Assembly: GCA_027018875.1 (NCBI GenBank)
Contig: JALUYA010000024.1
Coordinates: forward strand, 1-51,967
Direction of reading: 5' to 3'
Length of the DNA: 51,967 nucleotides
From: Gammaproteobacteria bacterium
GTDB taxonomy: Bacteria; Pseudomonadota; Gammaproteobacteria; JAKDMP01
Notes under the pieces: model-generated
Told to the model about the DNA's origin: nothing
Database searches by the model: none
Seen by the model: the letters and a program-made list of their open reading frames with translations, nothing else
Shown here: positions 15,048 through 28,243 of the stretch, piece after piece
How the letters are laid out: each line of letters opens with the position of its first letter
Position numbering within the stretch: the stretch's first letter is position 1
Position numbers and translations under genes: made by a program

Positions 15048-16525
15048 GAGGGGTTAACCACAGCCCGCAACTCGTCAATTAAATCGCCCGCCAATAATCC
15101 ACGGCTCCCTCCGCGGGCAGCGGCCCGGTCCCCGGCGCAGGCATGAATCCATACCCCGAGACGCGCGGCGACGGAGGCGTCAAGCCCCTGGGCACGCAAA
15201 GCGGCGATCACCCCCGTCAAGGCATCCCCCATACCCCCCGAGGCCATGCCCGGGTTACCGCGATCACAAAGCCACGGCATGCCTTCACCCGGCGACAACA
15301 CCAGGCTCCCTGCTCCTTTGAGGACCACGGTGGCCTCAAACCGCTCCACCAGCCGCTGGATGGACCGGATCCGGTCCGCCTCGATCGCACCTACTGTCGT
15401 TTCCAAGAGCCGCGCGGCTTCTCCCGGGTGCGGCGTCAAAATCCAGTCTTCCCGCCGCCGGGGATCGCCCGCGAGCAAGTTCAACCCATCGGCATCGAGG
15501 ACCAGGGGTTGCGACGCATCGAGCGCCGCCCGCCACAGCGCCCGGCTCCACGGGCTCTGCCCGAGTCCCGGGCCGAGTGCAAGTACATTCGCCCGCTCCA
15601 GCAAGGCGGGAGACAGAACCCCGTCCGTGCTCGCGTGAGCCATTAGCTCGGGACGCACGCCGACTATCCCCACTACGTGTTCGGGGCGAGTCAACACGCT
15701 GACCAGGCCCGCACCCGCGCGCGCGGCCGCAACGCCCGCCAGGCAAGGCGCGCCGGCAAACCCCCGCTCGCCCCCGATGACCAGCACGTGCCCGAAACGG
15801 CCCTTGTGGGCGCCCGCAGACCTGGCAGGCAACACCGAGTTCAACTCGTCGCCCTCGATAAGTTGTGCCCGTGGACGCAGATCCGCGGCCAACGCCTCGG
15901 GCACGCCAAGGCCGGCGAATTCCAGTCGGCCAACATGATCCACACCCGCTCCCGTGAACAGGCCGGGCTTCAGGCCGATAAAGGTGACCGTAAGGTCGGC
16001 CCGGACGGCGGCGCCTGCCACCGCCCCCGTATCCGCCTGTACGCCGGAAGGAATATCCACGGCGGCTACCGGCAGGGAGGCCCTGTTGAGCTTATCGATA
16101 ATCTCAGCGGCCGGGCCCCGGGGTGGTCGATCCAGGCCGATCCCAAACAGGGCATCCACCACCAGGTCGGCCCCCGCAGCCAAGGACGCGCCGAGCGGCT
16201 GGAGTGCACCGCCGCAACCTTGATAGGCACTCGCCGCAGCGGCCGCGGGCCCATCGGGTGGGGGCGGCTTCAGGGCCGCAACCGTAACCGTAAGCCCGGC
16301 CAGGTGGGCAAGCCGTGCCACCACGTAACCATCCCCACCGTTGTTACCGCCCCCGGCAAGGATCAGCCAGTGCCGGGCCTCAGGCCAGCGGGTTCTAATA
16401 AATCCGAATGCCGCCTCACCGGCGCGCTCCATAAGCAGGACCGGCGGCAGCCCCTGCAGGGCGGCGCGGCGATCCAACTCCGCCAGGGAAGAGGCCGAGT
16501 AAAGTAGGCGGGATGATGTATTCAT
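15044..16525 (-). CDS. nnr: Bifunctional NAD(P)H-hydrate epimerase / dehydratase
   Basis: A 493-aa fused enzyme that repairs hydrated NAD(P)H. The N-terminal epimerase (YjeF_N-like) half shows GGGNNGGDGYVVARLA and VVDALFGIGLDRPPRG. The C-terminal ADP-dependent dehydratase half shows HKGRFGHVLVIGG, ALGPGLGQ, DADGLNLLA, LTPHPGEAARLL, VVLKGAGSLV and GNPGMASGGMGDALTG. The start at 16525 (MNTSSRLL) leaves only 14 bp to the divergent queG start. It heads the minus-strand operon. Confidence 0.95.
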   Translation of the reverse strand: MNTSSRLLYSASSLAELDRRAALQGLPPVLLMERAGEAAFGFIRTRWPEARHWLILAGGGNNGGDGYVVARLAHLAGLTVTVAALKPPPPDGPAAAAASAYQGCGGALQPLGASLAAGADLVVDALFGIGLDRPPRGPAAEIIDKLNRASLPVAAVDIPSGVQADTGAVAGAAVRADLTVTFIGLKPGLFTGAGVDHVGRLEFAGLGVPEALAADLRPRAQLIEGDELNSVLPARSAGAHKGRFGHVLVIGGERGFAGAPCLAGVAAARAGAGLVSVLTRPEHVVGIVGVRPELMAHASTDGVLSPALLERANVLALGPGLGQSPWSRALWRAALDASQPLVLDADGLNLLAGDPRRREDWILTPHPGEAARLLETTVGAIEADRIRSIQRLVERFEATVVLKGAGSLVLSPGEGMPWLCDRGNPGMASGGMGDALTGVIAALRAQGLDASVAARLGVWIHACAGDRAAARGGSRGLLAGDLIDELRAVVNPS

Positions 16526-16539
16526 GCGATCATTATAGA

Positions 16540-17688
16540 ATGAGAAAATCGGTCGTACATCCCGTCGGAAGGTTAAATTCAACCGAACTGCAAACGCTCG
16601 TCGAGAGGCTCCGCGAATGGGCCTTGGAACTGGGTTTCGAGTCCCTCGGCATTGCCGATATTGAACTGGATGAGGCAGAGCGCCGGCTCGCCCGCTGGCT
16701 GGCCGCCGGCAACCACGGGGATATGCACTGGATGCACCGTCACGGCCGCAAGCGCAGCCGCCCGGCGGAGCTGGTCCCCGGCACCATTCGCGTCATTGCC
16801 GTACGCATGAATCATCTTTCCACCTCCGCGGAGGAAGCCCGGGCCACCCTGGCCAACCCCGAACGCGGCTACATCGCCCGCTACGCACTCGGGCGCGATT
16901 ATCACAAGCTGATTCGCAAGCGCTTGCAGCACCTGGCCGGACGGCTGGAGCAAACCATCGGCGCATTCGGTTATCGCGTCTTCTGCGACAGTGCCCCGGT
17001 GCTGGAAAAGCCCCTGGCACTCAAGGCGGGCCTGGGGTGGATGGGAAAACACTCGCTCCTGCTCGATCGGCACATGGGGTCCTGGTTCTTCCTGGGTGAA
17101 ATTTATACCGATCTGCCTCTGCCGGTGAGCCAACCTCAGAGACCATTGTGTGGCAGTTGTCGGCGGTGCCTCGATATCTGCCCGACCCGGGCGATCAGTG
17201 CCCCCTACCACCTCGATGCCCGCCGCTGCATCGCCTATCTCACCATTGAACACCGCGGGCCGATCCCCCCGGCGCTTCGCCCCCTGATCGGCAACCGGAT
17301 TTTCGGCTGTGACGACTGCCAACTGGCCTGTCCCTGGAATCGCCATGCGCAGCTCAGCCGCGAGGCGGCCTTTGTGCCGCGGGCTACGCTGCGAGCGTCC
17401 CGCTTAGTCGAGTTATTCTCCTGGAGCGAGGTGACTTTCCTGCGCCATACAGAAGGCAATCCCCTGCGGCGCGCAGGCTACCGGGGATTTCTCCGCAATC
17501 TGGCGATCGCACTGGGGAATGCCCCCAAATCGGACCCGATTACAGCGGCGCTGCGCCGGCGAGCGGAGGATCCATCCGGTCTCGTACGCGAACACGTCCG
17601 CTGGGCGTTGTCACAACAGCGGCGGCACAAAAAAGTCACGAATTCCCCCAGCGAAAACCGGAGTGCTACCGCACATTCCGCGAACTGA
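16540..17688 (+). CDS. queG: Epoxyqueuosine reductase
   Basis: A 382-aa cobalamin-dependent iron-sulfur protein performing the last step of queuosine synthesis in tRNA. The first ferredoxin-type cluster is CGSCRRCLDICP and the second is FGCDDCQLACPWN. RYALGRDYHKLIRKRL and GLGWMGKHSLLL are typical, and a C-terminal HEAT-like repeat contains REHVRWAL. The start is unclear: the ATG at 16540 has no ribosome binding site and may be leaderless, and an ATG at 16513 would overlap nnr. A diverged copy of its last part lies at 28544-28645. Confidence 0.93.
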   Translation: MRKSVVHPVGRLNSTELQTLVERLREWALELGFESLGIADIELDEAERRLARWLAAGNHGDMHWMHRHGRKRSRPAELVPGTIRVIAVRMNHLSTSAEEARATLANPERGYIARYALGRDYHKLIRKRLQHLAGRLEQTIGAFGYRVFCDSAPVLEKPLALKAGLGWMGKHSLLLDRHMGSWFFLGEIYTDLPLPVSQPQRPLCGSCRRCLDICPTRAISAPYHLDARRCIAYLTIEHRGPIPPALRPLIGNRIFGCDDCQLACPWNRHAQLSREAAFVPRATLRASRLVELFSWSEVTFLRHTEGNPLRRAGYRGFLRNLAIALGNAPKSDPITAALRRRAEDPSGLVREHVRWALSQQRRHKKVTNSPSENRSATAHSAN

Positions 17689-17914: not shown

Positions 17915-18445
17915 CTACTTGAGATTCCCGAGTGCGATGCGTGCAAGTCGTTTGCTTTGCACGAGCGCCTTGGGACTCGCGTCGTGGAGCATGCTGATGA
18001 CGATCGCCGTGCCGTGGGCCAACACATGCAATTGGAAGGATCCACGCGCCTTCAGGAGATAGGCCGCCTCTCCCAGACCCTTGACATCGGCAAAGCTGGG
18101 TTTGGCCATACCGGGCGGAACATCGAGGGTGGCCGTCTGCTTTTGGTAGGCGACTTCGGCGGCCGCATCGGTGTAATGGATGCGCCCGGCGAGCAGCATG
18201 AATCCGCCGTGAAGACTACCGGTATTGTAATTGCAAATCGAGGCGGCACCCGACCCGGCAGCCGAGGTATCGACCGCTTTAACGGTTACCCGGGTGCCGA
18301 GAACCCTGCCAGCCGCCGTGGCGCTCACCAGTTTGCACGCGTCAATCTTGCCACTGCCGGCATAAGAGGCGGCGGCGAAGGTCAACGTCAGGCCGAGCGC
18401 AATGACCCCGGTCGATGCGCAGTAGTTTCGGAACCGATGGCACAT
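17915..18445 (-). CDS. Exported protein of unknown function
   Basis: A 176-aa protein with an N-terminal signal peptide (hydrophobic core TGVIALGLTLTFAAASYA, cleavage likely before GSGK). The mature part begins KIDACKLVSATAAGRVLG, a pattern seen in small periplasmic or lipoprotein-like domains whose role is not known, and contains SICNYNTG. The start at 18445 has AGGAG 9 nt upstream. It follows the long secreted-protein frame on the same strand, separated by a GC-rich hairpin, and may be cotranscribed or separately expressed. Confidence 0.75.
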   Translation of the reverse strand: MCHRFRNYCASTGVIALGLTLTFAAASYAGSGKIDACKLVSATAAGRVLGTRVTVKAVDTSAAGSGAASICNYNTGSLHGGFMLLAGRIHYTDAAAEVAYQKQTATLDVPPGMAKPSFADVKGLGEAAYLLKARGSFQLHVLAHGTAIVISMLHDASPKALVQSKRLARIALGNLK

Positions 18446-18513
18446 GACAAGTTTCTCCTGTAAATTGGAGGCTTCGGGGCGCTTCGCACCGAAACGCCTC
18501 GACCACCGAGGGT

Positions 18514-18547
18514 GACCCCGACCCCCTGTGACGGGGAGGCCGGGGTC
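18514..18547 (-). terminator. GC-rich hairpin after the long secreted-protein frame
   Basis: GACCCCG at 18514-18520 pairs with CGGGGTC at 18541-18547, with further inner C/G pairing around a short loop. It begins 9 bp beyond the stop of the long frame. It is not followed by a T-run, so it may stall or stabilise RNA rather than be a full intrinsic terminator. Confidence 0.45.
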
Positions 18548-18555
18548 GCATTGCC

Positions 18556-20643
18556 TCAGAACTCGCGACGCTTGCGGAACATTACGCCGAAGCCCAGCAA
18601 GGCCAGGGCGAGCAAGCCGATGATGCCCAAGCTTCCGCCGCCACCGCCGCCGCTCGGGGGCGCAGGAGGCGCCTTCTTGACGGTGATTGCAACGGTGGCA
18701 ATATTCGAATCGGCCACCCCGTCGTTCACCTTCCAGGTGAAGGCGTCGGCGCCGGTGTAGCCGCCGGTGGAGGTATAGGTGTAAGCGCCGGTGACGGCAT
18801 TGGTGAGGGTGACCGCGCCGTGGGCGGGCGGGGTCACGATCGCGAAGGCGAGCGTGCCGCTGCTCGGGTTGGTGGCGGAGAGCGTGCCGGCGGTCGCCTT
18901 GGCCGTGGTGGCGGAGAGCGTGCCGTCGCTGGCCACCGGGGGCACATCGGTGGTGGTCTTCCAGCTAGCCGTGACGGTACTGCCGAGCGGAACCTCGTAG
19001 TTGTTTGCCGCCCAGAAGCCGCCGAGCACCACGGTGGTGGTGGTGTCGGTGCCGCTGCTGGGGGGCGTCATCTGCTCGAGCGCGAGCGGATTCTCGGCGT
19101 GCGCCCAGGCGACGTTGGTGCCGATGAAAGTACCCGCGAACGGGGCGCCGCCGCTGGTGCTGTACTTAGCGGTCTGGGTGACGAGGGCGATGTTCACTCC
19201 ACTGCTCCCCCCGCCGATGCTCACCCCGCTCACGGCGACGGCGTTGGAGGCCAGCGCCTGGCCGAGCGGTGCGCGGAGGACAGCGGTGAATGCGGGAGCC
19301 GTGGGCGTGAGATCGTAGGTATCGCTCAGCACCCGGGTGACGAACCCGGCCTCACCGCTGCCCTGGGTGGAATCGGCCCAGCCCGAGGCCACGATCCTGC
19401 CGTCACCCTGCAGCAACAGTGCGGTGGGGGTGGGAGTGTAGTTGTAGCTGTTGATGTTGCTGAAGTCGATAAAGCTCACGCTGCCGCCGCCCGCGAAGTT
19501 GAGATCGGCCGTGCCGTCGGCGAGAAAGCGCCCGATCGGGAGGCTGTTTTTGCCGTTATTGGCACTGATGAGGATCTTGCCGTCGGGCTGCACCGCGACC
19601 GGTACCTGCCACGTCCCATTCGAAGCGGAGCCGAACGCAACCGGTTTGCCGCTGTTGAAGCCGGTATCCACCGTGCCGTCGGCGAGAAAGCGCCGCATAT
19701 CGACTGGGTATGGTGGTGAACCGCTCTCATCCAGCTCGCTGATTACGAAGCCGCCGTCCGGAGCTAGTGCCAGGCCGGCGAGAAGCTGGCTGGTCGCACC
19801 GGTGATGAAGCCGGTGCTGCCGAAGCCGGTATCCACCGTGCCGTCGGCCTTCAGCCGCGTGAGCTTCCAGCCCCCCGTAGCGCTTAGTTGGCAGCCTGCG
19901 ATGAGTGCGCCGTCGGGTTGCAGGGCGGGCAAGCAAAATTCGTACGCGGAATCGTTGATGGCGGCGATCTGCACGTAACCGGTGCCGCCGAAGGCGGTAT
20001 CGGCCGTGCCGTCGGGGTTGAACCGCCACACCGTGAGCTGCACGGTACCGGAATCCATCGCACTGCCGGTGACGAGAATATGGCCGTCGGCGGTGAGCGA
20101 GAGGCCAGAGGCGCTGGCGTAATTGTGGAGCGGATCAACCACAATACCGGTGCCCGCCGTACCAAAGCTGGTGTCGAGTGAGCCGTCCGGTTTGAATCGC
20201 ACCAGGATCATGGCTGGGGCACCGTATGTGTTTACGAGCATGCCGGCGGCGAGAATCCGGCCCTGGTCGTCCACGTCGATGGCGTACAAATACAGGTTAC
20301 CGCCGGTGAAGCCGGCTTGGGCGGCGGTCAGGGCAGTTTCCCCGCTGCCGCTGCCTACCGCGGTATCGAGCGAGCCGTCGGGTTTATAGACGTTAATCGC
20401 CCCGCCCTCGCTCGTAGGGGTTTGAAAATGCCCGGCCCACAGGATGTCGTGGTTGAGCGGGTTCATGGCTGCGGCGTTGGGGTTAAAGGTAGCGGTAGGG
20501 GTGAAGTCAAACACCACCGGCGTACCGCCGTTGAAGGCCGGGTCGACGTCACCTGGTGTGGCGAGGGCCGGCAGGGCCGCGAGACTTAGCGCCAGCGCGG
20601 CGCCGGTGGAAACAAGAAAACGTCGGGTTAAATGGAATTTCAT
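18556..20643 (-). CDS. Second half of the fused frame: delta-60 repeat secreted protein (internal start)
   Basis: This is the part of the long frame that can be read alone from the ATG at 20643 (695 aa), which has its own AGAGG box at the same distance as the first start. It carries a signal peptide ending ALPALA before TPGDVDPAF. Repeated units such as RFKPDGSLDTSFGTAGTG, RFNPDGTADTAFGG and RFLADGTVDTGFN are delta-60-type repeats likely forming a propeller. A cadherin-like domain (TPPAHGAVTLTNAVTGAYTY) precedes the tail GGGGGGSLGIIGLLALALL and RKRREF. The tail resembles GlyGly-CTERM sorting signals. Confidence 0.6.
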   Translation of the reverse strand: MKFHLTRRFLVSTGAALALSLAALPALATPGDVDPAFNGGTPVVFDFTPTATFNPNAAAMNPLNHDILWAGHFQTPTSEGGAINVYKPDGSLDTAVGSGSGETALTAAQAGFTGGNLYLYAIDVDDQGRILAAGMLVNTYGAPAMILVRFKPDGSLDTSFGTAGTGIVVDPLHNYASASGLSLTADGHILVTGSAMDSGTVQLTVWRFNPDGTADTAFGGTGYVQIAAINDSAYEFCLPALQPDGALIAGCQLSATGGWKLTRLKADGTVDTGFGSTGFITGATSQLLAGLALAPDGGFVISELDESGSPPYPVDMRRFLADGTVDTGFNSGKPVAFGSASNGTWQVPVAVQPDGKILISANNGKNSLPIGRFLADGTADLNFAGGGSVSFIDFSNINSYNYTPTPTALLLQGDGRIVASGWADSTQGSGEAGFVTRVLSDTYDLTPTAPAFTAVLRAPLGQALASNAVAVSGVSIGGGSSGVNIALVTQTAKYSTSGGAPFAGTFIGTNVAWAHAENPLALEQMTPPSSGTDTTTTVVLGGFWAANNYEVPLGSTVTASWKTTTDVPPVASDGTLSATTAKATAGTLSATNPSSGTLAFAIVTPPAHGAVTLTNAVTGAYTYTSTGGYTGADAFTWKVNDGVADSNIATVAITVKKAPPAPPSGGGGGGSLGIIGLLALALLGFGVMFRKRREF

Positions 20644-23600
20644 CGGAATGTCCTCTCTGGGGTGGATGGAAGTGGAAGTGGAACCGCGGCGGCGCAGCCA
20701 CCACGGCACGAGGGCGAGCAGCAGCAGGCCGAGGAGCGCGAACGGGCCGAAGGCACCGCCGCCGCCGCCACCGCCACTACTCGGGGGTGCAGGAGGCGCC
20801 TTCTTGACGGTGATCGCAACGGTGGCGGTGTTCGACGTTAAGCCGGTCACCGTGTCTTTGGCGGTGAAGGTGAAGCTGTCGGTGCCGCTGTAGCCACTGG
20901 TCGGGGTGTAGGTGAAGGCGCCGGTGGTGGCGTTCACGGTGAGGGTGCCATGGGCAGGCTGAGAAGCGCTGGCATAGCTCAGCGTATCGCTGCTCGGAGT
21001 GACTACCGCGGGCAGGGTGCCGCTAAGCGCCTGGCCGGCGTAGGTGGTGAGCGTCAGGTTGCTGGCCACCGGCGGCACCTGCCCCGGTGGCGGCGTGGCA
21101 TTGATGGTGATGGCAACGGTGGCGGTGTTCGACGTTAAGCCGGTCACCGTGTCCTTGGCGGTGAAGGTGAAGCTGTCGCTGCCGCTGTAGCCACTGGTCG
21201 GGGTGTAGGTGAAGGCGCCGGTAGTGGCGCTGACCGTGACCGTACCGTTAGTGGGCTGGGCGACCAGGGCGTAGCTCAGCGTATCGCTGCTCGGAGTGAC
21301 TACCGCAGGCAGGGTGCCGCTGAGCGCCTGACCGGCGTAGGTGGTGAGCGTCAGGTTGCTCGCCACCGGATTCACCTGCCCCGGCGGTGGGGTCGGGTTG
21401 ACGGTGATGGCAACGGTGGCGGTGTTCGACGTTAGCCCGGTCACCGTGTCCTTGGCGGTGAAGGTGAAGCTGTCGGTGCCGCTGTAGCCACTGGTCGGGG
21501 TGTAGGTGAAGGCGCCGGTGGTGGCGTTCACGGTGAGGGTGCCATGGGCAGGCTGAGAAGCGCTGGCATAGCTCAGCGTATCGCTGCTCGGAGTGACTAC
21601 CGCAGGCAGGGTGCCGCTGAGCGCCTGACCGGCGTAGGTGGTGAGCGTCAGGTTGCTGGCCACCGGTGCGACCTGCCCCGGCGGTGGGGTCGGGTTGACG
21701 GTGATCGCAACGGTGGCGGTGTTCGACGTTAGCCCGGTCACCGTATCTTTGGCGGTGAAGGTGAAGCTGTCGGTGCCGCTGTAGCCACTGGTCGGGGTGT
21801 AGGTGAAGGCGCCGGTAGTGGCGTTCACCGTCACCGCGCCGTGGGTGGGCTGGGTGACCGAGGCATAGCTCAGCGTATCGCCATAGGGCGCACTGGCCGA
21901 CAGGGTGGTGCTGATCGCGCTGTTCTCGTAGGTGGTCAGCGACAGGTTGTTGGCCACCGGGGAAAGCTGTACCGTGAAGGTGAAGGTACCCGTGGCACTC
22001 TGGTTGTAGGCATCGGTGACGGTCACGGTCACGGTGGTACTGCCGCTCTGGCCGCTCACCGGGGTGAGCGTGAGGGTGCAGGACCCCGCCGCGGTGCACG
22101 AGCTTGCACCCGTGATGTTGGCATCGGGCAGCAGCGTGGTGTTGGAGCTGGTTGCCGTCACCGTGAGTGGCGTGCCGCTGCCGGCCAGCGTGAAGGCCTC
22201 GCTGCCCGCGTTAGGCACCGTCACCGTCACATTGCTCAGTCCGCTTAGCGTCGGCGGCGCCGGCGGCACAACAATGGTGGTGCTCGCGGTTTGGACAAGA
22301 TCGGGGGCGCCGTTGGCCAGTTGCCCGCTCTGGGCAATGCTCGATCCCCCCGCGCCGGTGGCCTGGAGCGTGAGCGTCGCGGAGCCGGTACCGCCGTTGC
22401 CGGCGATGCTGCCCAGGTCGCAAGTAACGTACTGGGTGATGCTGTTCTGGGTGCAGCCGAACACACCGTTCGGGCCGGTGCTGCTGACCGCCACCACGTC
22501 GGCCCCGCTGCTCGGAGCCGGCAACGCCACCTGTACATCGGCGCTGGCGGAGCTGCTGTTGTTGGTGAGGATGTACTGGCTGTCGAACCGGCCGCCCGGC
22601 ACCACCGTGGCCGGCGCGCTGAGCCCGGCGGAAAGATCGGAGGTGCCGAAGAAATAGGCCGCACCCTGGCTGCTGTTGCCGCCGATGGTCTTGTTGTAGG
22701 CCCCCACCAGTGCGGTGGCGCCGTCGGCGGAGAGCGCGACCGAGCTGCCGAAGGAGTCTTGCGCCGCACCGTCCGAGGCCGTCAGTTCGGCGGTGTAGGT
22801 CCAGGTGGTTACCCAGCCGCTGGGCAGCTCGGTGTACACATAGGCTGTACCCCGGTAGCTATTGCTGCCGACGGTCTTGTCACCCGCTCCCACCAGCGCG
22901 GTGGTGCCGTTGGCGGAGAGCGCGACCGAGATACCGAAGCCGTCATTCACCGCGCCGTCCGAGGCGATCAGTTCGGCCGGGGTATTCGTGGACCAGTTGT
23001 TCGTGGTAGTGAACAGATAGGCCGCACCCTGGCCGCTGTTGTTGCCGACGGTCGTGTTATACGCCCCCACCAGCGCGGTGGCGCCGTCGCCGGAGAGCGC
23101 GACCGAGATGCCGAAGTAGTCTTGCGCCGCACCGTTCGCGGCGATTAGTTCGACCTGAGCGTTCGTGGACCAGTTGTTCGTGGTAGTGAACACATAGGCC
23201 GCACCCCGTTGGCTGTTGCCGCTGACGTTCTTTTCCCACGCCCCCACCAGCGCGGTGGCGCCGTCGGCGGAGAGCGCGACCGAGAAACCGAAGTAGTCAT
23301 TCGCCGCGCCGTCCGTGGCGGTCAGTTCGGCGGTCTGGCTCCAGGTGCCGGCGGTGAGCGTGAATACATAGGCCGCACCCCGGTAGCTGTTGCCGCCGAC
23401 GGTCTTGTAATCGGCTCCCACCAGCGCGATGGTGCCGTTGGCGGAGAGCGCGACCGAGTTGCCAAAGTGGTCACCCGTCGCGCCGAGCGTGGTGGTCAGT
23501 TCGGCCGGGGTATTCGTGGACCAGTTGTTCGTGGTAGTGAACACATAGGCCGCACCCTGACCGTAGTTGCTGCCGACGTTCTTGTAATCGGCTCCCACCA

Positions 23601-24591
23601 GCGCGGTGGCGCCGTTGGCGGAGAGCGCGACCGAGTCGCCGAAGCCGTCTTGCGCCGCGCCGAGCGAGACGGTCAATTCGGCGGCCTGGCTCCAGGTGCC
23701 CCCGGCGAGCGTGTACACATAGGCCGCACCTTGGCCGCTGTTGCCGCCGACGGTCTTGGTGGGTGCCCCCACCAGCGCGGTGGTGCCGTTGGCGGAAAGC
23801 GCGACCGAGCTGCCGAAGTTGTCACCCGCCGCGCCGTCCGCGGCGGTCACCTCCTGCTGCACCCAGACCAGCGGATCGACCGTGACGGGATAACGGGCGT
23901 GGGCGGCATCGAAGGCGAGTGTGAGGGTGGTGCCGCGGGACCTGAGGGTTGCCGGCAGAACTTTTCCCGTGGCATCGACGACCCGCAGCTTGCCGTAGCG
24001 CAGCCGACCCCAGGCCAGCGTGCCATGGTGCACGGTGGGCGCGGCGCCGGCGCTCAGTTGCAGTATTACTTTACCGCGGCCCGCCGGGGCCTTGTCGATG
24101 GTGAAACCCTGCTCGTAGCCCAGCGGCAGCACCCGCCACCATTCGCTGATATGCCGGCCGCGGTAGGCGATGCGGTTGGCATGGGGTGCACTGCGGACCA
24201 GCTGCACTGGCCGTAGCGTGCCCACCCGGCCCCAGGCGGTGAGGTGCAGGCTTAGCTTATCCCGGCCGGCGCTGAATGCCGGGCCATGGCGACCAAAGCA
24301 GCCGGAAAACCCGGAAGATGAGTGCGCCCCGGTGGGCAGCACGGCACAGCCGTTGCGCCCAATGGCGTAGGCGGGATTGTGTGCCGCCGCCCCGGCCTGG
24401 GTCCGGGCGATAGCGGCGACCAACCCCGCCGGGGCCAGGCCGATGCCGTGGCGCGCGGGTGCGGCCTGCGTCGATTGGGAGGTGGTGGGGGTGTGCTGCG
24501 CGGTCTGCGCGAAGGTCGGCAGGGCCGCGAGACTCAGTGCCAGCGCGGCGCCGGTGGAAACAAGAAAACGTCGGGTTAAATGGAATTTCAT
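18556..24591 (-). CDS. Fused pair of secreted repeat proteins (FG-GAP/Ig protein plus delta-60 protein)
   Basis: One 2011-aa open frame from the ATG at 24591 (AGAGG 8 nt upstream). Residues 1-31 are a twin-arginine-like signal peptide (TRRFLVSTGAALALS). About 240-650 hold seven FG-GAP-type repeats, each with a DxFGxSVALS core, suggesting a seven-bladed propeller. Then come DUF11/Ig-like regions and four 99-aa cadherin/Ig-like repeats (about 871-1261). Residues 1273-1302 are a Gly-rich stretch, a membrane segment and RRR, a normal protein end. Without any stop the frame continues through GSTSTSIHPREDIP into a second near-identical signal peptide at 1317, a delta-60-repeat region (PDGSLDTSFG type), a cadherin-like domain and another Gly-rich/membrane/RKRR tail. 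It may be one polyprotein, or two proteins using an internal start. Confidence 0.85.
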   Translation of the reverse strand: MKFHLTRRFLVSTGAALALSLAALPTFAQTAQHTPTTSQSTQAAPARHGIGLAPAGLVAAIARTQAGAAAHNPAYAIGRNGCAVLPTGAHSSSGFSGCFGRHGPAFSAGRDKLSLHLTAWGRVGTLRPVQLVRSAPHANRIAYRGRHISEWWRVLPLGYEQGFTIDKAPAGRGKVILQLSAGAAPTVHHGTLAWGRLRYGKLRVVDATGKVLPATLRSRGTTLTLAFDAAHARYPVTVDPLVWVQQEVTAADGAAGDNFGSSVALSANGTTALVGAPTKTVGGNSGQGAAYVYTLAGGTWSQAAELTVSLGAAQDGFGDSVALSANGATALVGADYKNVGSNYGQGAAYVFTTTNNWSTNTPAELTTTLGATGDHFGNSVALSANGTIALVGADYKTVGGNSYRGAAYVFTLTAGTWSQTAELTATDGAANDYFGFSVALSADGATALVGAWEKNVSGNSQRGAAYVFTTTNNWSTNAQVELIAANGAAQDYFGISVALSGDGATALVGAYNTTVGNNSGQGAAYLFTTTNNWSTNTPAELIASDGAVNDGFGISVALSANGTTALVGAGDKTVGSNSYRGTAYVYTELPSGWVTTWTYTAELTASDGAAQDSFGSSVALSADGATALVGAYNKTIGGNSSQGAAYFFGTSDLSAGLSAPATVVPGGRFDSQYILTNNSSSASADVQVALPAPSSGADVVAVSSTGPNGVFGCTQNSITQYVTCDLGSIAGNGGTGSATLTLQATGAGGSSIAQSGQLANGAPDLVQTASTTIVVPPAPPTLSGLSNVTVTVPNAGSEAFTLAGSGTPLTVTATSSNTTLLPDANITGASSCTAAGSCTLTLTPVSGQSGSTTVTVTVTDAYNQSATGTFTFTVQLSPVANNLSLTTYENSAISTTLSASAPYGDTLSYASVTQPTHGAVTVNATTGAFTYTPTSGYSGTDSFTFTAKDTVTGLTSNTATVAITVNPTPPPGQVAPVASNLTLTTYAGQALSGTLPAVVTPSSDTLSYASASQPAHGTLTVNATTGAFTYTPTSGYSGTDSFTFTAKDTVTGLTSNTATVAITVNPTPPPGQVNPVASNLTLTTYAGQALSGTLPAVVTPSSDTLSYALVAQPTNGTVTVSATTGAFTYTPTSGYSGSDSFTFTAKDTVTGLTSNTATVAITINATPPPGQVPPVASNLTLTTYAGQALSGTLPAVVTPSSDTLSYASASQPAHGTLTVNATTGAFTYTPTSGYSGTDSFTFTAKDTVTGLTSNTATVAITVKKAPPAPPSSGGGGGGGAFGPFALLGLLLLALVPWWLRRRGSTSTSIHPREDIPMKFHLTRRFLVSTGAALALSLAALPALATPGDVDPAFNGGTPVVFDFTPTATFNPNAAAMNPLNHDILWAGHFQTPTSEGGAINVYKPDGSLDTAVGSGSGETALTAAQAGFTGGNLYLYAIDVDDQGRILAAGMLVNTYGAPAMILVRFKPDGSLDTSFGTAGTGIVVDPLHNYASASGLSLTADGHILVTGSAMDSGTVQLTVWRFNPDGTADTAFGGTGYVQIAAINDSAYEFCLPALQPDGALIAGCQLSATGGWKLTRLKADGTVDTGFGSTGFITGATSQLLAGLALAPDGGFVISELDESGSPPYPVDMRRFLADGTVDTGFNSGKPVAFGSASNGTWQVPVAVQPDGKILISANNGKNSLPIGRFLADGTADLNFAGGGSVSFIDFSNINSYNYTPTPTALLLQGDGRIVASGWADSTQGSGEAGFVTRVLSDTYDLTPTAPAFTAVLRAPLGQALASNAVAVSGVSIGGGSSGVNIALVTQTAKYSTSGGAPFAGTFIGTNVAWAHAENPLALEQMTPPSSGTDTTTTVVLGGFWAANNYEVPLGSTVTASWKTTTDVPPVASDGTLSATTAKATAGTLSATNPSSGTLAFAIVTPPAHGAVTLTNAVTGAYTYTSTGGYTGADAFTWKVNDGVADSNIATVAITVKKAPPAPPSGGGGGGSLGIIGLLALALLGFGVMFRKRREF
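20569..20657 (-). repeat. Signal-peptide/leader cassette, copy 2
   Basis: About 89 bp covering the ribosome binding site and most of the signal-peptide code, differing from 24517-24604 at only a few positions. The copies lie in direct orientation at the two starts of the long frame. Confidence 0.85.
20644..20657 (-). promoter_or_regulatory. Internal ribosome binding site within the long frame
   Basis: On the minus strand CAGAGAGGACATTCCG directly precedes the internal ATG at 20643. It is nearly the same as the leader of the first start at 24591, and within the long frame it is translated as PREDIP. It supports independent initiation of the second protein. Confidence 0.6.
20809..21978 (-). 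repeat. Four 297-bp tandem repeats (99-aa cadherin/Ig-like units)
   Basis: The unit boundary word ggcggtgttcgac recurs at 20824, 21121, 21418 and 21715, an exact 297-bp period. Each unit encodes PVASNLTLTTYAGQALSGTL, then FTYTPTSGYSG and DSFTFTAKDTVTG. The three copies nearest the C-terminal tail are almost identical; the outermost (protein-proximal) one is more diverged. Copy number is likely to vary by recombination. Confidence 0.92.
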
Positions 24592-24604
24592 CGGAATGTC
24601 CTCT
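24517..24604 (-). repeat. Signal-peptide/leader cassette, copy 1
   Basis: Direct-repeat partner of 20569-20657. The near identity is stronger than expected from protein-level selection, because synonymous positions and the non-coding leader are also conserved. It points to recent duplication or gene conversion. Confidence 0.85.
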
Positions 24605-24662
24605 CGGGGTTGAGTGGCAGTGGAACGGGTGGGCGCGGGTGCGAGCAAAGGATGTTGGAGTT

Positions 24663-24926
24663 TCATGGCGAATGGCCTCCGTGCCCGCTGGATGAGCGCT
24701 GGTCGCGGTGGACAGCGAATACCGTCACTCCGCCCGCACCCAGGATGTCCCACAGCTCGCTGATGTTGTGAAAGGGGCGGCGCTTGCTGTCGGTGTAGAC
24801 GTCTTCAACCAGACCGACGAGCGTTCCAGAACCGCCGTCACGCCCTGCCGTGCGCCGATAGATACGCACGATGTAGCTGTCGACATCGGTATTGTCCGTA
24901 CTCAATTGCCGTTTCTGCCGGGCCAT
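24663..24926 (-). CDS. Small conserved cytosolic protein, 87 aa
   Basis: MARQKRQLSTDNTDVDSYIV starts at 24926 with GAGAG 6 nt upstream; a TTG at 24941 would add 5 residues. The core SYIVRIYRR, GTLVGLVEDV and RRPFHNISELWDIL looks like a small conserved family often found near large regulators and exported proteins, but I cannot name a function. There is no signal peptide. The stop overlaps an ATG at 24666 (ATGA) that is in frame with the long secreted protein, so translational coupling is possible. Confidence 0.65.
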   Translation of the reverse strand: MARQKRQLSTDNTDVDSYIVRIYRRTAGRDGGSGTLVGLVEDVYTDSKRRPFHNISELWDILGAGGVTVFAVHRDQRSSSGHGGHSP

Positions 24927-25027
24927 CCGGTACTCTCGCAATGAACTTGCTTCCCAGTGTGGAGGCCAGGCGATTACAGATCGGGTACGGATTGCCCGCG
25001 ATTTACGCGCTTATGTCGAAAGGCGAC

Positions 25028-28000
25028 TCAGTGGCGGGTGAGGGCGCGGTGCAGGGCCTCGGTTTCGGCGCTGGGAGCGCAGTCGAGCACCTGGTCGAGC
25101 AATTCGGCGCAACGGCGGTAGACGGCCAGTCCCTCGGCGCGGCGCCCACTATCCAGGTGACAGCGCATCAGGCTTCGGTAGCAGGCTTCGGCCAGTTCGT
25201 CGAGAGCCAGGGCGTGTTCGTAACAAACGATTGCGGCGCAATTGTCACCGTTCGCGTGCAGGGCGTCGGCAGTGGCGGTGACGGCCCGCAGCAGGCGGTT
25301 ACGGATTCGTTCGCGCGCCGGCAGCGCCCACGGCGCTTCCTCGTCGCCATGAAGGAATGGGCCTCGATAGAGCGTCAACGCCGGTTTGAGCGCCGCAAGA
25401 GCGAGTTGGGCGTCATCCGGCAGCGCGTTTTCGACCCCATCCAGGTGACGCTCGCAGGCCCACAAGTCCACCCGGCACCGGGTCGGGTCCAGGCCTATCA
25501 ATCCCCCCTGGCGCTGTACCGCCTCGACCCCGATCAGTCGGCGCAGGCGATGCAACGTTGTGGCCAGTGCCTGCTGCGCGGCGTCGCCCTCGGCCTCCGG
25601 CCACAGGGCATCGGCGAGGCGCACTTCGGGAACTTCGCGCCGGCCCAGTGCCACGATCGCCTTGAGCAGTGCGAGCGGGCGTTTCTGGCTTTTGCCCTCG
25701 AAACGCAACGGTATATCATCCTTTCGTACCTCGAAATGACCTAGGGTGGTGATGCGCAGCGGCCACGGCCAGTTGCTCAAATGCACCGGGGGGTGTTCCG
25801 GCGCGAGCCGCCGTAATCGGATCAACCGCTGCACGAACTCGGTCTCTATGTCGTGTTCGAGGGCGATGACGCACAACTCGGCCATCGTGGAGCTGTTCCA
25901 CAAGGACGAGGTGGTGAAGTCGTGAACCCGGCACACTGCCATAAATTCGCGCAGCGTACTCAACATCTTCCGCCGGTGGCCGCGGGTGCGGGCAAATTCG
26001 GTCTGCGCCAGCAGTGCGGCATAGGCAATGGTGCCGCTGTGGCTGGCCGCGGCCAGATCCCTGGCTTCGGCCACCGCCGCATCGGCGGCAGCCGTTTCGC
26101 CCCGTAGCTCAAGTGCCCGCGCCAGTGCCGGCAGCACCGTCCCCTGGGCCCAAGGCACGCCGGCCCGGCGAGCTAGTTGCAGTGCGGTTTCGGCGTGTTC
26201 GTGCATTGTCGCGACATCACCCCGGTGCATGGCCGCCGTAAAGACCTGGTAGTGGTAGTGGCAGGCATCGAGCAGACGGGCGGGCTGGAGTACCGCACTC
26301 ATGCGCGCGAGCAGTTCGTCCGTGGCGGCCAGATCACCGGCGGTAACCTGGCCCCAGGTCGCCTGCGCCAGGAGCATGAAATCCCACATATGAGTGCCGC
26401 TGCGTTCGGCCAGTTCGAGACCACGCTCAGCCATCGTCACGCAGCCTTGAGTATCCGAACGCATCCACAATTCCATGGCCCGAATCGCACACCAGACGAC
26501 CCCGATCAGCGGGGCCGCATCGATGTGTTTGGCCCGCGGCTGCAGCAGGGCGGTAATGCTCGCGGCCCGCGCCAGATCGCCGCTCCACCAGACATAATAG
26601 GGTACCAACCGGCTGCCGGCTAACAGCCGCAGGCTCTCGTTTTGTTCGATGAGTCGATGCATACGCCGGGTCCAGTCCGGCAGATCCGGATGCTGCGGCT
26701 GCCGGTACGAGAGCGCCGTGAAGATGCCGATCACCGCCCGCGCTTCGGCCTCGGCATCGGGAAAGCACGGATAGCGTTCGCGTAACCGCTCGAAGCGTTC
26801 GATCCAGCAGTCGAGTGCGGTGAAATTTCCCCACTCGTAGACGAAGCTGTCTACCACGCCCGACCAGGCGCAAAAGCACCCGCGGGCATCATCGCCGGAC
26901 TCAAAGCCTTCCAGTGCGGCGGAAAATAGTGCGCGGGCCATCGGTTGGTCGAAAGGCAACCGACAGATGGCCTGCCAATAAAGCAGCCCGGGCCGGGCCT
27001 CGATCTCGCTGCCGGGCATGGCCTCCAGGGCCGACTCGATGAGCCGGGTACGGCCCTCCGCCAACCAGGTTGGCGCTTGGGCCGCCAGCAGGGTTGCGAC
27101 CTGTGCCCAATCTCCAAGCTCGACCAACAGTTCGAGCGCATCTTCGCTCTGGTGGTCCTCGATCAGCAGCCGCGCGGCGCGATGGCGTACCGCGTCGAGT
27201 CGTTTCGGAGACCAGCATTCCCGGGCCCGGCGCAGCAGGCAGTCACGAAATAACGGATGATACTCGTAAGCCGGCCGGGCGCCGACGTTACGGCTGGTGA
27301 AGTAGTTGAGCCGGCACAGCTCGGCAATCCGCGCGGCGGCCTTGGGATCCTCGCACTGGCGGGCAAGAAGAGCCGCCGGCATGCGCGGCAACCAGGCGCT
27401 TTGCAGCAAGGTCTCCAGTGTTTCCGGTGCGACCCCGGATAGAACCTCGGCGGAAAAGTAGTCGAACAACGGCTCGCTCGCATCAGCCGCTACGACCGGC
27501 GACGCCGGGCTTTGTGCCCCCGCCTGTTCCAGGAGCAGGGTAAAGCCCGCGGCCCAGCCCCGTACCTGGCGATGTAGTTTATCCACACTTGCGGGCGTCA
27601 GCCGTTTGCCAAAGCGCTTCAGGGCGATAGCGCGGGCCTCGGTGACGTCCAGCATCAAGGCACTGTCGTCGATAATGCCAATGGATTCGCAGGCCCGCAG
27701 ACGTGCGAATGCGATCCCGGGTGGACTGCGGCTGGTCAGAATCACGCTGATCGAATTCGGCGCCTGCTCCAGACCTGCCGCCAGCAGGGTTGCGGTGATC
27801 GAATCATTGGGAAGTACCTGGCAATTGTCGAATACCAGAATGCTCTCGGGTTGGATGAGTTCAAAGAAGCGTTCGAAAAAGCTCCGTGCGTAGGCGTCGA
27901 GTCCGGCCAGGTATTCCGGGGTCAGATACGGCAGTTGCGTCGCCCGCTGCGGCGCAACGGCCTGCACCGCGAGACGCAGATAGTGAAACAGCGTCGCCGG

Positions 28001-28243
28001 ATAGCGGTCGCGGCTGTCGAGTTGATACCAGATACAGGGGCGCCGGCTGGCCTCGACGTAGGTGCTGGCCAACACGGTTTTACCGCTACCGGGAGCGCCG
28101 ACGACCCAGGCCGCCGAGTGGGCGAGCGTCTCCCGCAGCCGCTGCTGTAGTCGTTGGCGTCGATAGGCGTGGGGCAGACGTGGCCTGGCCAATTTTAATG
28201 GTAGTTTCGCACCCCCCGATCGTGGTGCTGCTGTGCCCGGCAT
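25028..28243 (-). CDS. MalT-like STAND ATPase regulator with C-terminal BTAD/winged-helix domain
   Basis: A 1071-aa cytoplasmic regulator. The N-terminal KLARPRLPHAYRR signature and the Walker A GAPGSGKT (49-56) and Walker B ILVFDN (135-140) motifs match MalT/LuxR-type signal-transduction ATPases. The middle is a long helical TPR-like sensor region. Instead of a LuxR helix-turn-helix, the C-terminus has an OmpR-like winged helix (about 830-915, ITTLGHFEVRKDDIPLRFEG) and a bacterial transcriptional activation domain (about 920-1071, LALAALKPALTLYRGPFLHG, ERIRNRLLRAV). The start has GGAG 6 nt upstream. It lies upstream of the small and secreted genes on the same strand and is their likely regulator. 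Confidence 0.88.
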   Translation of the reverse strand: MPGTAAPRSGGAKLPLKLARPRLPHAYRRQRLQQRLRETLAHSAAWVVGAPGSGKTVLASTYVEASRRPCIWYQLDSRDRYPATLFHYLRLAVQAVAPQRATQLPYLTPEYLAGLDAYARSFFERFFELIQPESILVFDNCQVLPNDSITATLLAAGLEQAPNSISVILTSRSPPGIAFARLRACESIGIIDDSALMLDVTEARAIALKRFGKRLTPASVDKLHRQVRGWAAGFTLLLEQAGAQSPASPVVAADASEPLFDYFSAEVLSGVAPETLETLLQSAWLPRMPAALLARQCEDPKAAARIAELCRLNYFTSRNVGARPAYEYHPLFRDCLLRRARECWSPKRLDAVRHRAARLLIEDHQSEDALELLVELGDWAQVATLLAAQAPTWLAEGRTRLIESALEAMPGSEIEARPGLLYWQAICRLPFDQPMARALFSAALEGFESGDDARGCFCAWSGVVDSFVYEWGNFTALDCWIERFERLRERYPCFPDAEAEARAVIGIFTALSYRQPQHPDLPDWTRRMHRLIEQNESLRLLAGSRLVPYYVWWSGDLARAASITALLQPRAKHIDAAPLIGVVWCAIRAMELWMRSDTQGCVTMAERGLELAERSGTHMWDFMLLAQATWGQVTAGDLAATDELLARMSAVLQPARLLDACHYHYQVFTAAMHRGDVATMHEHAETALQLARRAGVPWAQGTVLPALARALELRGETAAADAAVAEARDLAAASHSGTIAYAALLAQTEFARTRGHRRKMLSTLREFMAVCRVHDFTTSSLWNSSTMAELCVIALEHDIETEFVQRLIRLRRLAPEHPPVHLSNWPWPLRITTLGHFEVRKDDIPLRFEGKSQKRPLALLKAIVALGRREVPEVRLADALWPEAEGDAAQQALATTLHRLRRLIGVEAVQRQGGLIGLDPTRCRVDLWACERHLDGVENALPDDAQLALAALKPALTLYRGPFLHGDEEAPWALPARERIRNRLLRAVTATADALHANGDNCAAIVCYEHALALDELAEACYRSLMRCHLDSGRRAEGLAVYRRCAELLDQVLDCAPSAETEALHRALTRH

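Follow-up and report, generated by a model that had tools for sequence, protein, structure and literature searches.

A regulator gene, a small-protein gene and genes for secreted proteins appear from their sequences to form a recurring cassette with a common operator, which we find in several phyla. The cassette was recognised in contig JALUYA010000024.1 of a Gammaproteobacteria bacterium (assembly GCA_027018875.1), the whole 51,967 nucleotides (nt) of which we call the window. A sequence-only reading of the window had put a MalT-like STAND ATPase with a SARP/BTAD output, an 87 amino acid (aa) protein and large exported proteins in order on one strand, and our check of the open reading frames (ORFs) confirms that order, with the regulator at 25028-28243, the small protein at 24663-24926 and the long exported frame at 18556-24753, all on the - strand. 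We think it highly probable that a STAND-SARP activator drives an operon for the small protein and exported proteins in the manner of AfsR and afsS, a level of confidence that applies to the activator, operator and operon part.

The pairing of regulator and small gene was counted in loci selected solely for having the small gene, which gave 68 copies in 38 genomes. Regulators were detected in these loci not by Pfam but by profiles that we built on the window protein and relatives of it. A STAND/BTAD gene is present on the same strand within 1.5 kb upstream for 50 of the 68 copies (30 of the 38 genomes), and this recurrent neighbourhood, with the operator and exported neighbours described below, takes the proposal of a linked system beyond the gene order on which it was first based. 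The pair recurs in genomes labelled Gammaproteobacteria, Desulfobacteraceae, Geobacteraceae and Nitrospirae, among others. The small family was also expected to co-occur with BTAD-STAND regulators, and it does so: in one phylum sample 19 of the 20 small-bearing genomes and 2 of the 34 non-bearing ones have BTAD at E <= 1e-10 (Fisher p 2e-11). At E <= 0.001 it is in 13 of the first 14 small-bearing genomes. These have 28 copies of the small gene, and genomes with several BTAD genes have several copies. The distances among linked BTAD and small proteins are correlated (r 0.64, 44 of 48 pairs usable, 0 of 2000 permutations). Five weak or odd genomes of the Geobacteraceae-centred phylum sample (G916, G971, G1056, G1061 and G1131) were excluded from the genome-wide operator and BTAD co-occurrence counts; all but G916 are included among the 38. 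The largest number of copies is in G751 (loci L095 and L096), a metagenome-assembled genome (MAG) titled Bordetella parapertussis, with nine small copies and eleven BTAD matches. At L143, L151 and L163 we noted by eye toxin-like ORFs with a PIN domain (VapC-like) between regulator and small gene.

With regard to the operator, the small genes have 5' of them a tandem repeat, ATCYGTRA-N3-ATCYGTRA, with a period of 11 bp. We could score 54 of the 68 upstream regions, the remainder being short of upstream sequence or of the core pattern that anchors the start. With period 11, 39 of the 54 score at least 13/16, against 1 to 12 for the other periods from 8 to 25 and a mean of 0.5 for shuffles, and the operator score is reached by 4 of 304 other genes of the same loci. 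Seventeen of the 39 operators lie outside the stretch used when the motif was first noticed, although one of these, that of the window, had already been seen earlier. The predicted SARP operator of the window is at 24971-24992 (-), 5' of the small gene, and consists of two 11-bp direct repeats, ATCCGTACCCG and ATCTGTAATCG, which score 15/16 to the family motif. In the 2.2-Mb genome of the window there is one exact match only, at 24975-24992, before the small gene.

A TG-n-TA element follows the operator at constant spacing in an alignment of 33 non-redundant sites, the T and A at positions 32-33 having 1.39 and 1.05 bits, and by the phasing adopted here 9 bp separate the second 11-bp unit from the -10 hexamer in silico. 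The predicted -10 element of the window is CACACT at 24956-24961 (-), positions 32-37 of the operator alignment, a weak match to the consensus proposed on account of the family-conserved spacing. The exact pattern has 42 sites in 24 of 34 small-bearing genomes as against 5 sites in 5 of 34 others, while the reversed-pattern control gives 1 match in the small-bearing set and 3 in the others. Twenty-five of the 42 exact sites have a small gene no more than 400 nt downstream, and there are exact sites directly before exported genes, for example at L197, L200 and L214. The operator is retained by small genes with no regulator nearby, as at L085, L088, L152 and L173. Several of the G751 copies (L095, L096) have by eye a different upstream repeat, AATAAGT..../AAT, also with 11-bp spacing. 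On sequence grounds the operator has the features of published SARP operators and of the AfsR target afsS. According to the cited portions of two reports, SARPs recognise direct repeats spaced by 11 or 22 bp, the 3' one standing 8 bp away from the -10, and afsS, a small gene that adjoins that of AfsR and is activated by it, has a poor -10 (PMC10936776, PMC10972967).

The regulator (1071 aa) has a MalT-like STAND ATPase at about residues 14-425, a TPR-like middle and a SARP output at about 828-1068, and the architecture proposed for it at the outset has held. BTAD is matched at 87.9 bits (Pfam cut-off 22.1) over residues 925-1068 and is above cut-off also in five scanned relatives. The N-terminal half matches the NCBIfam MalT model NF003420 at 171.1 bits over 14-425, which is below its cut-off of 537; the NCBIfam AfsR model aligns to residues 828-1067, below the equivalog cut-off of that model, and TPR_MalT gives 28.5 bits, below its cut-off of 45. 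Trans_reg_C is found in two of the five scanned relatives, below its own cut-off. The SARP class is defined by an OmpR-type DNA-binding domain followed by BTAD, and the regulator has both in that order. Its overall domain order, with the nucleoside triphosphatase (NTPase) first and the SARP part C-terminal, is the opposite of that in large SARPs, in which an N-terminal SARP part is followed by NTPase and TPR parts. The regulator may have its own transcript, because the conserved promoter falls between it and the small gene.

The small protein of the window, the founding query of its family, has the core DSYIVRIYRR...FHNISELWDIL, and in the family this core takes the form [D][S/T]YIVRIYRR, a short variable stretch, VGxVE, FHN and ELWxIL. 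It scores 75.8 bits against the A3 family profile and has no match in Pfam, in NCBIfam (E <= 1) or, by sequence search, in PDB, and so far as these searches go it defines a family absent from the catalogues. Weak Pfam matches of single family members to L27, Pico_P2A and KOW6 were judged to be chance. In seven of seven close pairs the ratio of nonsynonymous to synonymous substitution rates (dN/dS) is 0.09-0.45, which points to purifying selection on the small gene. Two AlphaFold2 models (mean pLDDT, the predicted local distance difference test score, 65.8 and 71.0) both have three strands and one helix. We found no significant structural relative for them with Foldseek (best E 0.46 and 0.33) or VIA (best Z 4.1). 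The models may resemble the methyl-CpG-binding or AP2-type folds, which is a lead only.

A scan of named genomes gave nine small-gene loci, labelled Acidiferrobacterales, Gammaproteobacteria (two), bacterium BMS3Bbin13, Desulfobacteraceae, Geobacteraceae, Geobacter, Nitrospirae and the MAG titled Bordetella parapertussis, a title we consider doubtful. Of the 369 genomes in a class sample 9 match, including the window's own and a false match in G020, which we discarded as it is on the opposite strand of an ORF that looks by eye like rmuC. The small protein has a match in 26 of 395 genomes of a phylum sample around a Geobacteraceae genome; in a plain sample of the phylum centred on the genome of the window it has one in 1 of 398, solely that genome itself, and the family is thus rare in that Pseudomonadota-type sample. 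Two Nitrospirae copies (L098:9869-9985, and G752:C37:45989-46084 in L099) are shortened to 38-39 aa and lack the helix part, and that of G752 is still preceded by an exact operator match.

In the case of the exported cargo, the window has a long open frame of 2065 aa in which FG-GAP_2 (258.8 bits, cut-off 23), DUF5122 (85.1, cut-off 27), the delta-60 model TIGR02608 (128.7, cut-off 76.5) and Big_9 are all above cut-off. The large propeller and Ig-like proteins of the sequence-only reading are thus there, with their repeats and signal peptides, but the frame is best read as two tandem exported units, because there are two copies of a 117-nt leader with a Shine-Dalgarno-like site, ATG and signal peptide (24509-24625 and 20561-20677, both -, 92% identical) and each unit has its own tail. 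Unit 1 (20644-24591, -) has a signal peptide, seven FG-GAP_2 repeats, Big_9/tandem-95 Ig-like repeats and a GlyGly-like tail, and unit 2 (18556-20643, -) its own Shine-Dalgarno-like site, a signal peptide, delta-60/DUF5122 propeller repeats, Big_9 and a GlyGly-like tail. The ATGA overlap that had been noted does exist, between the stop of the 87-aa gene and ATG 24666, but this ATG is probably not the start used, and ATGA is probably not a point of translational coupling. We favour ATG 24591 (MKFHLTRRF...), because the Shine-Dalgarno-like GAGAGGA and the signal peptide are found there.

Both units finish with a linker rich in Gly, followed by a hydrophobic stretch and Arg residues. At the junction, near 20643-20690, the Gly-rich tail, hydrophobic stretch and Arg are followed with no stop codon by the second Shine-Dalgarno-like site, ATG and signal peptide, and either the product may be a polyprotein that rhombosortase and signal peptidase cleave, or the stop codon may have been lost. 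Both tails match the GlyGly-type model NF038115 in part, at 26.6 and 21.7 bits, the whole-protein cut-off being 150. A rhombosortase gene, which it had been suggested to look for elsewhere in the genome, is present at G000:C1:81289-81744 (TIGR03902, 128.5 bits, cut-off 84), and by sequence the GlyGly-like tails fit it. The G+C content of 18000-28200 is 65-68%, with mostly about 55-61% in the flanks on either side, and this block, which may be an insertion, sits between queG (16513-17688, +) and a diguanylate cyclase gene (28569, +).

Across the loci we counted as exported any ORF that is accepted by an ad hoc signal-peptide caller and whose start is -150 to +700 nt from the small gene. Such an ORF follows 41 of 61 small copies, two of the 41 being false calls that by eye are RuvA-like, as against 38 of 220 control genes (p 3e-13). 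At L161:4052-4327 and L175:9836-10321 a gene that again looks RuvA-like by eye takes the place of an exported one, lying after the small gene or overlapping its end. Pfam, run on ten cargo proteins, finds DUF5122 in L090 and L093, PD40 in L088 and RCC1 with CARDB in L174, and has no match in the other six. There are PEP-CTERM-like tails in cargo of L012, L014, L017 and L155, and an IPTL-like tail in that of L098, where the exported gene is between regulator and small gene; other cargo proteins are lipoproteins or have no tail, and many are of 150-190 aa. In the Geobacteraceae-centred phylum sample a recurrent exported protein, about 162 aa long and with the C-terminus ...TGxYEL/FKK, comes after the small gene at L145, L148, L159, L167 and L177; that of L145, the one we scanned, has no match in Pfam. 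GlyGly-like tails are thus not the common factor that had been proposed, and of the suggested sensed surface-display or adhesion module it is the regulator and small-protein pair with exported neighbours that recurs.

The exported neighbours would also suit a small protein that is a cytosolic pilot or chaperone for its exported partner, and is beside the regulator solely through the operon. However the cargo types are unrelated (propellers, PEP-CTERM proteins, lipoproteins, 160-aa proteins) and yet the small core is conserved, there are copies beside a regulator that have no exported neighbour, as at L168 and L091, and presence of the small gene tracks the regulator, so that we consider such a role improbable. 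We suggest instead that the small protein is probably a dedicated regulatory partner, taking all regulatory roles together, because its conservation tracks the regulator more than the cargo. Within this, it is quite possible, if a little short of an even chance, that it is a feedback modulator of the STAND switch, and rather unlikely that it is an AfsS-like relay to further genes.

The repeats, their period, the -10 spacing and the co-occurrence are observed, and the mechanism that we propose, with gating, binding, activation and cotranscription inferred, is as follows. The large cytosolic regulator, by analogy with MalT and AfsR, would be a ligand- or assembly-gated switch made of the STAND ATPase and TPR parts, and when gated it would license its C-terminal SARP domain. 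This domain would bind the two 11-bp repeats, at the place of the -35 upstream of the small gene, and recruit RNA polymerase. Going by gene order, the transcript would yield first the small beta-sheet-plus-helix protein and then the exported proteins, which are often propeller-repeat, PEP-CTERM or lipoproteins.

Several points weigh against an activator-driven cassette. Eighteen of the 68 small copies have no same-strand regulator within 1.5 kb upstream: for three it is farther upstream on the same strand, for two on the opposite strand and for one downstream, and for 12 there is none in the fetched stretch, some of these being at contig ends. Some small genes lack a nearby regulator or cargo, and 20 of the 61 copies have no exported ORF by the ad hoc caller. 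Conversely some regulators have no small gene, as at L102, where there is a regulator with PEP-CTERM cargo; there the STAND-BTAD gene (L102:5278-9459, G748:C112) is directly followed by the PEP-CTERM-like exported gene, with a partial operator of 12/16. The motif is missing from 15 of the 54 upstream regions, including most of the nine G751 copies, of which 2 have the operator, and its consensus was derived from part of the sequences on which it was scored. Of the 42 exact sites, 17 lie elsewhere than in front of a small gene, and several sites have no target that we recognise after them. Genomes of the same lineage, and paralogues, are also not independent in these counts.

It could also be that the genes hitch-hike in a horizontally moving block and are not functionally coupled, which would account for the patchy distribution (as in the 1/398 sample), the several copies per genome, the high G+C of the block and the PIN-domain-like ORFs seen by eye at some loci. 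We think this very unlikely, as the operator type expected for the regulator's class precedes the small gene at a fixed -10 spacing, and is also present at copies distant from any regulator. An origin from a phage or mobile element is likewise unsupported, there being no relatives of the regulator or small family in the viral contigs searched, nor of the small protein in the plasmids searched. A STAND-based defence or toxin-antitoxin system in place of control of surface-protein genes, to which the STAND ATPase and a small uncharacterised partner might point, is most implausible given a transcription activator as output domain, a conserved promoter element, exported cargo and no PADLOC match at E <= 0.01 for regulator or small protein.

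The activator-driven cassette would extend SARP-type control, mainly studied for Streptomyces antibiotics, to Gram-negative environmental bacteria, in which it appears to govern secreted and surface proteins. It supplies a new small-protein family with an evident partner, and as the operator can be read from sequence the regulons can be predicted. More tentatively, and with rather less than even confidence, we suggest that these are cross-phylum one-component switches for control of secretion, in which a STAND-SARP fusion is joined by a microprotein that would feed back on the ATPase as an encoded MalK- or Aes-like signal, and by which the cell would count or time production of each exported surface protein. 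If so, the copies in one genome, of which there are up to nine, would be insulated channels that work in parallel and whose operators diverge.

Among the papers listed by full-text searches of one open library, none has a title or abstract start that describes the cassette, an absence that applies to that library and the words searched. Parts of the cassette resemble known systems. Several cargo proteins have tails like those of PEP-CTERM/exosortase sorting, and the window has the GlyGly-like tails and rhombosortase of GlyGly-CTERM sorting; in contrast to both, the cassette is a regulatory layer in which the tails vary and at many loci are absent. The N-terminal STAND ATPase half of the regulator is shared with MalT, a STAND-LuxR activator, although the regulator is below the MalT cut-off and its output is SARP/BTAD and not a LuxR-type helix-turn-helix. 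GSU1771 of Geobacter sulfurreducens is also a SARP-family regulator from outside the actinomycetes, and affects surface, exopolysaccharide and some PEP-motif genes, but it has an N-terminal receiver domain and no STAND/TPR part, and the cited portion of the report mentions no small partner (PMC10599522).

The closest likeness in arrangement is to AfsR-AfsS of Streptomyces. Both have SARP output, nucleotide-binding and TPR parts, and a small-protein gene adjoining the regulator, which AfsR activates, as we predict here; in the same cited portions the afsS promoter has a poor -10 and, over the -35 position, a pair of direct repeats of 11 bp (PMC10936776, PMC10972967). The cassette differs in its C-terminal SARP part and MalT-like NTPase, in cargo that is exported proteins where that of AfsR is antibiotic regulators, and in not being actinobacterial. 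Its small protein, with the conserved YIVRIYRR...ELW core and no family match, is apparently different from AfsS, a difference we state without direct sequence comparison. By sequence the cassette thus resembles AfsR-afsS yet departs from the domain order of large SARPs and has an uncatalogued small protein, and it offers a second, independent setting for the question raised by AfsR, that of how a STAND-SARP regulator cooperates with a small protein from the adjacent gene.

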